This document shows positions 40,975-43,724 of a DNA stretch of 48,379 nucleotides, one piece after another. The translations under genes were made by a program, and so were the position numbers. Numbering within the stretch: the first letter of the stretch is position 1; every line of letters starts with the position of its first letter. Origin of the DNA: Bacteriovoracaceae bacterium (GTDB lineage Bacteria; Bdellovibrionota; Bacteriovoracia; Bacteriovoracales; Bacteriovoracaceae); NCBI GenBank assembly GCA_023137315.1, contig JAGLPP010000063.1, positions 1-48,379 of the forward strand, read 5' to 3'. The notes beneath the pieces are model-generated. The model saw nothing but the letters and a program-made list of their open reading frames with translations, was not told the DNA's origin and did no database searches.

Positions 40975-41043
40975 CGATGGACGGCACGCACATTGTTTTC
41001 AAGTAACTGGCTTACGGGCTTTATTGGATTATGGAGGAGACCA

Positions 41044-41610
41044 ATGAGACTTACATCAAAAGGACGTTACGCTGTTAGGGCAATGCTGGATTTAACCCAA
41101 CATTCGAAGGGAAATCCGGTAAGACTTCAAGAAATTTCTCAAAGACAGAACATTTCTTTGCATTATCTCGAACAATTGTTCAGAAGGCTGAGAAATGGTA
41201 GTGCTGTGAAATCGGTTAGAGGGCCGGGAGGAGGCTATGTTCTCGCAAGGACCATGGATCAGATTACAATCAAGGACGTGCTTGATTGTGTCGGCGAAAA
41301 CATTAATCCTGCCAAGGACATAATCGGAACCGAGGCAGAGACTTCTGACACTGTTGAGTATCATCTTTCAAAAAATTATTTCCAGAATCTTGGAATAATT
41401 ATGAGAGAGTACCTCGAAACAACATCACTTGGTGATTTAATTAGAAAATCAAAGGATGTTGAAATCGAGAAGAGAGAACAGGTTTCAAATTTTGCACAAG
41501 AGATACTTGCCCAATCAGAAGCTGCAACTACAACTACAACTGATACAACTACTGTTGAACCTGAAGTTCAGAGCGTAATTAGAAGTCCGCTAGGTGAAAT
41601 TAACCAATAG
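41044..41610 (+). CDS. Rrf2-family transcriptional regulator (IscR-like, no cluster cysteines)
   Basis: 188 aa. ATG 41044 after GGAGGAGA; an in-frame start at 40993 lacks a ribosome site. Winged helix: MRLTSKGRYAVRAMLDL, ISLHYLEQLFRRLR and VRGPGGGYVLAR are the Rrf2/IscR signatures. IscR holds a [2Fe-2S] cluster with three Cys; here only one Cys is present in that region (VLDCVGEN), so no classic cluster. A Thr-rich tail (ATTTTTDTTTVEPEV) follows near the C-terminus. It overlaps the cysteine desulfurase by 17 bases, so it probably controls sulfur or Fe-S supply. Its promoter carries an inverted repeat that it may bind. Confidence 0.9.
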   Translation: MRLTSKGRYAVRAMLDLTQHSKGNPVRLQEISQRQNISLHYLEQLFRRLRNGSAVKSVRGPGGGYVLARTMDQITIKDVLDCVGENINPAKDIIGTEAETSDTVEYHLSKNYFQNLGIIMREYLETTSLGDLIRKSKDVEIEKREQVSNFAQEILAQSEAATTTTTDTTTVEPEVQSVIRSPLGEINQ

Positions 41611-42724
41611 ATATTATTTCGATTATAATGCAACATCCCCATTGGCCTGTTCAGTTAAAGACTGGGTGGCAAGTGGGGGTGTTTTTTTAGGCAATCCGTC
41701 CGCCATTCATCTATCAGGCAGGGAAAGTGCGAAGCTTATTCATGAAACGTGCGATTTCCTTTTTTCCATATTTGGTTTGAAAAAAACTCATGACCTTTTT
41801 TTCCATTCAGGTGCCACGGAAGGAAGCAATACTATTCTTACTGGTTTCGTTGATTCCATGAAAAAAGATGACGGTGCGCTTTTTTTATATTCGCCAACTG
41901 ATCATTCATGCATTACGGAAACGGCACCAATTATGGAAGGAAAAGGTCTTCAAACAGAGATGTATAAAATAAACAAGAATGGGGAATTTGATGAGGTTTT
42001 TTTTCAGGGTGGTTACCTGGATAAATTTACAGGGAATTCCATATTGAATTATACATGGGTTAATAATGAAACAGGTGTTGTCTGGGATTTAAAGAAGGCC
42101 TCCAGAATTAAAGAAAAGACAAATGCATTTATTCATGTTGATGCAACCCAGGCACCTTTTAAGGTGGAGGATTGGCGAAAACTCGATTGTGATATTGATG
42201 CTTACAGTTTTTCCGGCCATAAGTTCGGTTCGTTTACCGGAGTTGGTTTTAGCTTCATTAAAAAGGGATACAAGTACAACAGGTTTCGTGGTGGAACACA
42301 AAATCTTCATGGTATTTATTCAATGAAACTGGCAATTGAGGAAAAGCTTTTGAAGGTGGATATTTCACGAACAAGGAAAGCAAAACAATATCTGGAGTCG
42401 GAACTTTCAAAACTTATACATAAAAAAGGGGAAATTGTTGGCGCAGAATCCTCTTTGAGAAATTCAAATACAATCATGATGATAGTATATGGAAAAAAGG
42501 CAAATAATCTTCTTCCGGCATTTGATATGGGCGGGATGGATATTTCGAGTGGTTCTGCTTGTTCATCAGGCCTTTCCGGGCCAAACAGAGTGCTTTTGGG
42601 GATGGGTTACAGTGAAGCAGATGCATCTTGTGCTTTAAGGTTTTCATTTGAACCGGAACTTACGCAGGAAAGTGCCAATACCTATTTTGAAAGAATAAAA
42701 TCTGTTTTTGTAAGAATCTTGTAG
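41594..42724 (+). CDS. Cysteine desulfurase (NifS/IscS family)
   Basis: 376 aa, GTG start at 41594. PLP-lysine motif FSGHKFGSFTGVG, catalytic Cys in SGSACSSGL, family start YFDYNATSPL and GNPSAIHLSGR. It removes sulfur from cysteine for Fe-S clusters and thiolated tRNA. It is coupled to the Rrf2 gene by overlap, but no IscU, IscA or Hsc gene follows, so it may be a free-standing desulfurase. Confidence 0.93.
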   Translation: MKLTNRYYFDYNATSPLACSVKDWVASGGVFLGNPSAIHLSGRESAKLIHETCDFLFSIFGLKKTHDLFFHSGATEGSNTILTGFVDSMKKDDGALFLYSPTDHSCITETAPIMEGKGLQTEMYKINKNGEFDEVFFQGGYLDKFTGNSILNYTWVNNETGVVWDLKKASRIKEKTNAFIHVDATQAPFKVEDWRKLDCDIDAYSFSGHKFGSFTGVGFSFIKKGYKYNRFRGGTQNLHGIYSMKLAIEEKLLKVDISRTRKAKQYLESELSKLIHKKGEIVGAESSLRNSNTIMMIVYGKKANNLLPAFDMGGMDISSGSACSSGLSGPNRVLLGMGYSEADASCALRFSFEPELTQESANTYFERIKSVFVRIL

Positions 42725-42871
42725 CCGTAGTGCGTTATTTTTCTTGAAAAAAAAGTGCTCTTAACCCCTTTTTGTCTCCATTCGCCGCAGCATTGTGGGA
42801 CGAAAGGATACTAGTCACATATCAGCACCAATTAAAAATGAATAAATCATTGGAAATTAGTCAAGAAAAAT

Positions 42872-42887
42872 TGGCACGGTTTTGGCA
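42872..42887 (+). promoter_or_regulatory. Sigma54 (-24/-12) promoter
   Basis: TGGCACG at 42872-42878 and TGGCA at 42883-42887: GG and GC spaced by exactly 10 bases (42873-74 and 42885-86), as sigma54 requires; the -24 part is full consensus and the -12 part differs by one base from TTGCA. Predicted +1 is near 42898. The upstream 42725-42870 interval has no gene; imperfect repeats CCTTTTTGTC and GGGACGAAAGG may be activator sites. Confidence 0.7.
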
Positions 42888-42897
42888 ATAGTATTAA

Positions 42898-43084
42898 TCA
42901 AGATTGGTTGGTTTTCGGTTTTGGCCTTGATCAGCAAAGAGCATTATCCCAATATCCCACCTTAACCAATCTCATGAATAAGGGCCTGAATAGGCACTTG
43001 CCAGTAAAACCTCTTATATCACATCTTTTAATACTTTTTACTTATGATCAAGGCAGACCGCCGTGCTGAGGCACGTTTATTTTT
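42898..43084 (+). ncRNA. Candidate sigma54-dependent structured RNA
   Basis: About 187 nt between a sigma54 promoter and an intrinsic terminator with no convincing ORF. Stem A: AGATTGGTT (42901-42909) with AACCAATCT (42964-42972), 9 bp perfect. Stem B: GCCTTGATCA (42924-42933) with TGATCAAGGC (43045-43054), 10 bp perfect. They cross, giving a pseudoknot. A small hairpin GCCT/AGGC lies at 42984-42995. A 31-codon ORF (42974-43069) lacks a ribosome site. It is transcribed from the gap after the desulfurase and overlaps the 3' end of the convergent unknown gene. Confidence 0.55.
43062..43084 (+). terminator. Terminator of the candidate RNA
   Basis: CGTGC (43062-43066), loop TGAG, GCACG (43071-43075), then TTTATTTTT. 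The tract is on the plus strand, so it serves the plus-strand RNA and not the minus-strand gene whose stop it overlaps. Confidence 0.7.
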
Positions 43085-43724
43085 CCAGTTTGTCAAAATT
43101 AACATCAGAAGAGATATTGACCCCTTGGAAAGCCTTTTCCTCTTTCTCTTTGATAAACGGAAAGGATACCTTGTAGGTGTCTTCAAAATCGCAGTTATAT
43201 GCAATTGTGATCGTCTTGGGGACAGATTCACGTAGCAATCGAATGTAATAATCTTCGGGCAAGTCCGAAATATTGATACTTCCTGAACCTTCAACTACGT
43301 CTTCAGGATCATCGGTCAAAAATTCAGTCATTGGTTTGCTTGAGCTGTTTTTTATAGTGAGTGCGGCCCTTATTTTTTCTTTTGGAATATTGTTTGTGAG
43401 TTGCCATGATCCGATATGAAAGAAGTCGAGATAAAAATATGAATTGTCATATTTGTATTTTCTTGGAAGAAGTAGTGCTTGAAGAAATTTTCTTGATAAT
43501 GGATCTTTTGCCCTTTTTGCCAATTTATCGGCAAGTTGGCTGTCTTCAATTCTTATAATATATGCGCCTGGATATTTAGTGGAACGAAAAAGCATGTATT
43601 GAAAGGCGATACTGAACAGAGTGAAGAGTTTGTGCTGGCAAAGGTGAATGTGTGGTTTATCTTCCAATTCGACCAGCGTTTTAACGGATTCGTAAAGGTC
43701 TTTTTTTGTCAATTGGGTATCCAT
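43077..43724 (-). CDS. Hypothetical protein (215 aa)
   Basis: 215 aa, no signal peptide or membrane segment. The N-terminus is helical and Leu/Lys-rich (LTKKDLYESVKTLVELEDK). The middle has a beta-like KYKYDNSYFYLDFFHIGSW and the end is acidic and Lys-rich. I recognise no domain. The ATG follows GAGGAAAG at slightly long spacing. Its 3' end overlaps the terminator of the candidate RNA, so antisense effects on it are possible. It is divergent from a LysR gene. Confidence 0.75.
   Translation of the reverse strand: MDTQLTKKDLYESVKTLVELEDKPHIHLCQHKLFTLFSIAFQYMLFRSTKYPGAYIIRIEDSQLADKLAKRAKDPLSRKFLQALLLPRKYKYDNSYFYLDFFHIGSWQLTNNIPKEKIRAALTIKNSSSKPMTEFLTDDPEDVVEGSGSINISDLPEDYYIRLLRESVPKTITIAYNCDFEDTYKVSFPFIKEKEEKAFQGVNISSDVNFDKLEK

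Follow-up and report, generated by a model that had tools for sequence, protein, structure and literature searches.

GlmY and GlmZ of enterobacteria are controlled by sigma54 together with GlrR/QseF and are bound by RapZ (PMC7073468; PMC8745638; general background). The Qrr RNAs of Vibrio are controlled by sigma54 together with LuxO (PMC10162802). Qrr RNAs are simple stem-loops of ~100 nt and are present in several copies. CrcZ and CrcY of Pseudomonas are sigma54-dependent decoys that carry A-rich Hfq/Crc motifs. Myxococcus, another lineage of predators, has a regulatory RNA, Pxr, for a life-cycle transition (PMC10217877). Pxr is also sigma54-dependent. In the same phylum as the organism studied here, merRNA and the AP-sRNAs of Bdellovibrio bacteriovorus HD100 are intergenic, and one of them, APsRNA5, is 176 nt long (PMC3627812). 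In the literature that we searched, the attack-phase RNAs of this one Bdellovibrio strain are the only regulatory RNAs described in Bdellovibrio-like organisms.

Here we describe an interval of the window, the 48,379-nucleotide stretch of Bacteriovoracaceae DNA that was analyzed as a whole (contig JAGLPP010000063.1 of assembly GCA_023137315.1, hereafter G000). The interval is likely to represent a real, undescribed family of structured RNA genes with a sigma54-type promoter. This is inferred from sequence, without transcript data. No such RNA was found described for Bacteriovorax or Halobacteriovorax in a literature search that left out most subscription papers. The features of the locus are listed in Table 1. 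The terminator extends into the last bases of the convergent gene, and TsaE-like and GlmM-like genes also precede the cysteine desulfurase gene in the window.

Table 1. Positions in the window of the predicted RNA gene, its parts and its neighbors.
Feature	Positions	Strand	Basis
Rrf2 regulator, before cysteine desulfurase	40993-41610		
Cysteine desulfurase (aminotransferase class V), upstream neighbor	41594-42724	+	syntenic in many relatives
Putative UAS/dyad region in relatives, ~60-140 bp before the -24 box	42740-42830	+	palindromic-motif search, 41 homologous upstream regions
Sigma54 -24/-12 promoter TGGCACGGTTTTGGCA	42872-42887	+	sequence; TGGCAY-N7-GCW kept in 43/43 homologues
Predicted RNA gene, ~187 nt	42898-43084	+	promoter gives the inferred start, terminator the inferred end; covariance-model matches
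P1 5' strand GGTTGG, pseudoknot	42906-42911	+	covariation
P2 5' strand GGCCTTGATCA, long-range helix	42923-42933	+	8 pairs changed on both sides
Conserved C-rich single-stranded motif TCCCACCTT, consensus UCCYACCUU	42955-42963	+	CCYACC in 35/43 RNAs
P1 3' strand CCAATC, pseudoknot	42966-42971	+	covariation, tested alone
P3 hairpin GCCT-GAAT-AGGC, conserved GAAU loop	42984-42995 (extended stem 42980-42999)	+	4/4 core pairs changed on both sides
P2 3' strand TGATCAAGGCA	43045-43055	+	covariation
Predicted intrinsic terminator: hairpin CGTGCTGAGGCACG (43062-43075), T-tract TTTATTTTT (43076-43084)	43062-43084	+	sequence
215-aa protein of unknown family, convergent downstream neighbor	43077-43724	-	syntenic

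The promoter has GG at 42873-42874 and GC at 42885-42886, separated by N10, and a full TGGCACG at 42872-42878. Relative to TGGCACG-N4-TTGCA it has one mismatch, a G for T that gives the window's own promoter an atypical -12 element (TGGCA). Transcription is predicted to start at ~42898; this start is inferred from the position of the promoter, without RNA-seq. An earlier note on this DNA had claimed a -24/-12 site of this form and a GC hairpin with a U-tract ending at 43084, and both were confirmed at their positions. Its further claim that such a sigma54 match seldom arises by chance was overstated and did not hold. Promoter-like sites with up to two mismatches number two in the window vs 2.7 expected, and with up to one mismatch there is one vs 0-2 in 20 shuffles. 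Terminator-like hairpins number two vs 2.4 expected. Taken alone, the promoter-like site and the terminator-like hairpin are each no better than chance, hence conservation had to decide. The significance of the promoter and the RNA rests on conservation and not on the local pattern.

A DNA similarity search of 59 genomes gave matches whose first base is 42897, immediately 5' of the predicted start, and defined a conserved block at 42897-43055. Re-alignment of these homologues showed a GG-N10-GC site at equal upstream distance in every one of them. A first covariance model, built from six sequences and spanning 42901-43055 of the RNA, begins 3' of the promoter and found matches in 38 genomes among the 129 of the order. 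A second model (R2), built from 38 sequences, enlarged this set. The final set places the RNA in 43/129 genomes, all in the family of the window (Bacteriovoracaceae-like), usually with one copy per genome. Some relatives within the order have no recognizable copy. The site TGGCAY-N7-GCW lies just upstream of the RNA with correct spacing in all 43 homologues. The model start lies 13-19 nt after the -12 GC in 42 of them and 38 nt after it in the most diverged copy. This conservation is an independent test, because the search model excluded the promoter. Retention of the RNA together with a sigma54 promoter in every one of the 43 genomes makes a real regulatory RNA the probable reading, over a product of chance. 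Seven weak model matches (the six L094-L099, and L085) were rejected, being without promoter and without fold. A search of 240 genomes from the rest of the phylum gave only two weak matches, both rejected, and model R2 found nothing convincing in Bdellovibrio. Rfam 15 covariance models gave no match to the interval at the gathering score, and only two chance matches up to E 10. Tandem duplications of the RNA gene are seen in L062 (5321-5777, minus strand) and in L309/L016; the second copy in L062 is the sole copy with a broken -12 element.

The predicted fold comprises a pseudoknot helix (P1), a long-range helix (P2) and a hairpin capped by a GAAU loop (P3). Covariation was tested over 38 sequences and 24 base pairs with shuffled controls. 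Standard pairing is found in 91.9% of cells, and pairing falls by half once the partner is displaced by a single column. Seventeen pairs have changes on both sides, in 121 cells vs 11.0 and 33.0 in shuffles, and the covariation score is 0.395 vs 0.157 shuffled. Covariation is strong for P2 and P3. P1, tested alone, is paired in 98.2% of cells. Two of its pairs are changed on both sides, and double changes occur in 4 cells where shuffles give 0.4; its support is weaker than that of P2 and P3. The fold is a pseudoknot because P1 crosses P2. All three helices are thus backed by compensatory changes, an inference made from sequence alone. The motif CCYACC occurs at a mean of 1.16 per RNA vs 0.15 in shuffles; most RNAs have one copy and 14/43 have two or more. 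The GGA motif is not enriched (1.26 per RNA vs 1.99 in shuffles). Across homologues the longest internal reading frame is between 8 and 63 aa and none is conserved, and so the statement in the earlier note that no convincing protein gene lies between promoter and hairpin held. Its core claim, that 42.87-43.08 kb holds an as yet undescribed RNA gene under sigma54 control, is supported by conservation and covariation, in the absence of transcript data. The check it had proposed in related genomes was passed: the interval is kept, covariation is strong and the promoter is present in every homologue. Its idea that the RNA responds to nitrogen, envelope or surface signals is speculation only, with no evidence either way.

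Upstream of the RNA there is a further conserved element. A search for palindromic motifs in 41 upstream regions found the dyad GGnnC-N4-6-GnnCC with a likelihood of 273 vs 46-65 in Markov shuffles. The dyads cluster 60-140 bp before the -24 box and are present at 33/41 promoters, at a density of 1.49 per 260 nt upstream vs 0.093 in other DNA (~16x). An out-of-sample set was made of 11 promoters of diverged RNAs (L302-L304, L307, L308, two in L309, L310-L312, and L015), none used in training. Ten of these have a dyad scoring >7 within 130 bp. At least one dyad is found at each of the 11, and at least two within 200 bp at seven, vs background frequencies of 15% for any dyad and 2% for two. This layout is as expected for binding of an enhancer-binding protein (EBP), an inference from established sigma54 biology without binding data. 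The upstream region of the RNA in the window itself scores poorly, with no dyad above threshold at 42740-42830 and one at 42638-42655. The dyad motif looks specific to the RNA, because other sigma54 promoters of genomes G002 and G000 carry it at only 4/37, not above background.

A presence/absence screen for the responsible EBP, with 12 genomes sampled, found no orthogroup specific to RNA-bearing genomes; four EBP orthogroups are common to nearly all 12, with or without the RNA. A test for autoregulation, in the form of RNA-type dyads before EBP genes, found none that was consistent. RpoN is encoded in 121/129 genomes of the order. The rpoN gene was not found in G000, in which sigma54 sites are also present. 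Its absence there is probably an assembly gap, because G000 has 8 EBP-type ATPase matches. Other sigma54 promoters of these bacteria also gave some observations. Genome G002 has 20 sigma54 sites vs 1 in control and most genes behind them encode exported proteins, a bias that might hint at an envelope or secretion regulon. In B. bacteriovorus HD100 (G154), a sigma54 promoter conserved in several Bdellovibrio genomes precedes a gene whose product begins MSDQHIEPELN (3200046-3200124, minus strand).

The genomic setting of the RNA is shared by many genera, in which the gene order is glmM, tsaE, rrf2, cysteine desulfurase, RNA, the convergent 215-aa gene and EF-G (fusA). The next downstream gene varies by genus (the 215-aa gene, an ankyrin protein, MarC, a response regulator and others). 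Genera missed by the model carry RNAs of other sequence, sigma54-driven as judged by promoter, within the interval between cysteine desulfurase and EF-G. Those of L015, L303, L304 and L307-L310 adjoin rrf2 and the cysteine desulfurase gene and/or the 215-aa gene and EF-G. In their predicted folds, the diverged RNAs share the GAAU-loop hairpin and a long-range stem, and they have the same promoter type and upstream dyads. L302, L311 and L312 have like features at other genomic sites, two of them with an ACCUACC or CCUACCUU motif.

A different RNA, also sigma54-driven by its promoter, is found in genus g24 (L139, L171, L313-L318 and L321). It is ~130 nt long with a strong terminator and folds into a GCTAAC/GTTAGC stem around a GAAU-loop hairpin. 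Dyads and synteny are largely missing. The g24 RNA adjoins an EBP gene in L139 and L171, and this EBP orthogroup is absent from the sampled RNA-bearing genomes. Homology of the g24 RNA to the Bacteriovoracaceae-like RNA family is conceivable, and is neither supported nor excluded. Sigma54 promoters also flank this EBP gene in L132, L139 and L171, where they stand in front of small membrane-protein-like (MLRAAI...) and CsbD-like genes, surroundings that could hint at a stress regulon.

Complements of UCCYACCUU before start codons in ten genomes number 70 sites vs 58 in a reversed control, and a broad antisense role of the motif at start codons is therefore unsupported. A narrow antisense role remains possible. 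The sole suggestive case is sdhB, which encodes the iron-sulfur subunit of succinate dehydrogenase, and it is limited to three genomes from a single genus: the start region in L247 carries AAGGTAGGA, complementary to UCCYACCUU, and matching sites are present in G002 and G093. A 205-aa gene found in 5/5 genomes of one genus was discounted as an antisense target, because the stop codon of the upstream gene sits inside the motif.

The reading that we prefer is a free-standing, trans-acting regulatory RNA controlled by sigma54 and an EBP, the founding member of a family in Bacteriovoracaceae-like bacteria. We hold this to be likely, with transcription, activator, signal and targets all inferred; action in trans is probable as well, and unproven. 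The parts supported by sequence are the sigma54 promoter, tandem upstream dyads in most relatives, a folded RNA of ~155-190 nt, one or two UCCYACCUU motifs in its C-rich single strands, and a free-standing gene. In the proposed mechanism, an activated EBP, one of those conserved across the family, would fire the promoter, and the folded RNA would accumulate and then act in trans. Most likely, the P1/P2 pseudoknot and the GAAU hairpin would serve as a scaffold for stability or protein binding that displays the C-rich segments. These segments would either base-pair with a few mRNAs, at G-rich regions around the translation start, or be bound by an RNA-binding protein and keep it occupied. Protein binding through the GAAU hairpin or the C-rich strands is possible, and is as compatible with the data as the narrow antisense role. 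The two cannot be separated and stand nearly level; given a regulatory RNA, we would place each a little short of probable.

Several other explanations were considered. The interval might be accidental, a promoter-like site and a hairpin in intergenic DNA, each of which is indeed at chance level alone. The promoter kept in 43/43 homologues, the covariation, the enhancer motif and the synteny all but rule this out. A cis-acting leader or riboswitch would control the downstream gene by termination or translation. Riboswitches typically have a pseudoknot and unpaired bases that are conserved, as seen here, and the next gene lies on the same strand in 13/41 loci. However, in 28/41 loci the RNA is followed by a gene on the opposite strand, which speaks against a leader; in addition, the identity of the downstream gene changes between genera, and in the window the RNA is followed by a terminator and then a convergent gene. 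We regard a leader as very unlikely. Less probable still is a small-protein gene under the sigma54 promoter. An open frame of 53 aa does exist in the window (42908-43069), but in homologues the longest frame is anywhere from 8 to 63 aa, lengths vary freely, and the changes preserve base pairs.

A merRNA-like sponge would be a structured RNA present in very large amounts, in which a metabolite or second messenger is stored or buffered. This would fit a pseudoknotted, free-standing RNA with conserved unpaired bases in relatives of Bdellovibrio, where merRNA was reported (PMC3627812). Against it, there is no RF01051 (c-di-GMP-I) match in G000 or the window and no Rfam riboswitch in the interval. 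Moreover, merRNA is reported to be attack-phase specific, whereas the promoter here is sigma54-type, and we judge a sponge unlikely. A protein decoy like CrcZ or RsmZ is a more open alternative and may be entertained. Here, the C-rich repeats and the GAAU hairpin would titrate an RNA-binding regulator and relieve repression of mRNAs. In its favor are the two or more CCYACC copies in 14/43 RNAs, the persistence of the GAAU-loop hairpin where the surrounding sequence does not persist, the lack of antisense enrichment (70 vs 58), and sigma54 control, which is also known for CrcZ. Against it, GGA motifs of the RsmA/CsrA type are not enriched (1.26 vs 1.99 shuffled), no candidate protein is known, and most RNAs have a single motif copy.

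The trans-acting regulatory RNA remains our preferred explanation. It would give an RNA family with defined promoter type, structure and boundaries in Halobacteriovorax-type predators, so that deletion and probing can be designed directly. It is also a rare case in which at least 20 genera have inherited an enhancer-dependent promoter jointly with its RNA, and some of their versions have diverged so far that sequence search cannot link them. A bolder reading, which is no more than a possibility, is a fast-evolving RNA regulator across a superfamily of predatory Bdellovibrionota, with one pseudoknotted locus fired by sigma54 and an EBP between cysteine desulfurase and EF-G. The sequence would drift between genera, with only the promoter, the dyads, the GAAU hairpin and the long-range stem being retained, and the RNA would bind a dedicated, as yet unidentified protein via the GAAU hairpin to effect a life-cycle or envelope switch.

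Among the known RNAs of predatory bacteria, merRNA differs by its c-di-GMP-I domain, which is absent from the window RNA and from G000. APsRNA5, taken from the HD100 genome (G154, recognized as HD100 by the position of merRNA), is similar in size to the window RNA; it was rejected as a homologue, having no TGGCA/GC promoter and no shared fold. Pxr gave no match in the Rfam scan of the interval, a comparison made through Rfam and general background only. CrcZ and CrcY share with the window RNA a sigma54 promoter and a repeated single-stranded motif, but the window RNA has a C-rich motif, a predicted pseudoknot and no Rfam match. Qrr RNAs are trans-acting and under sigma54/EBP control, as is inferred for the window RNA, and they differ in that the window RNA is without an Rfam match. 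GlmY and GlmZ are, like the predicted window RNA, chromosomal non-coding RNAs of ~180 nt with a sigma54 promoter and upstream activator sites, and glmM lies a few genes upstream of the window RNA. Unlike them, the window RNA is pseudoknotted and has no adjacent EBP gene, no sequence or covariance match to them and no evidence for a glmS target. While the Rfam comparison shows that it belongs to none of these families by sequence or structure, its control, by analogy, resembles that of GlmY/GlmZ, Qrr and CrcZ.
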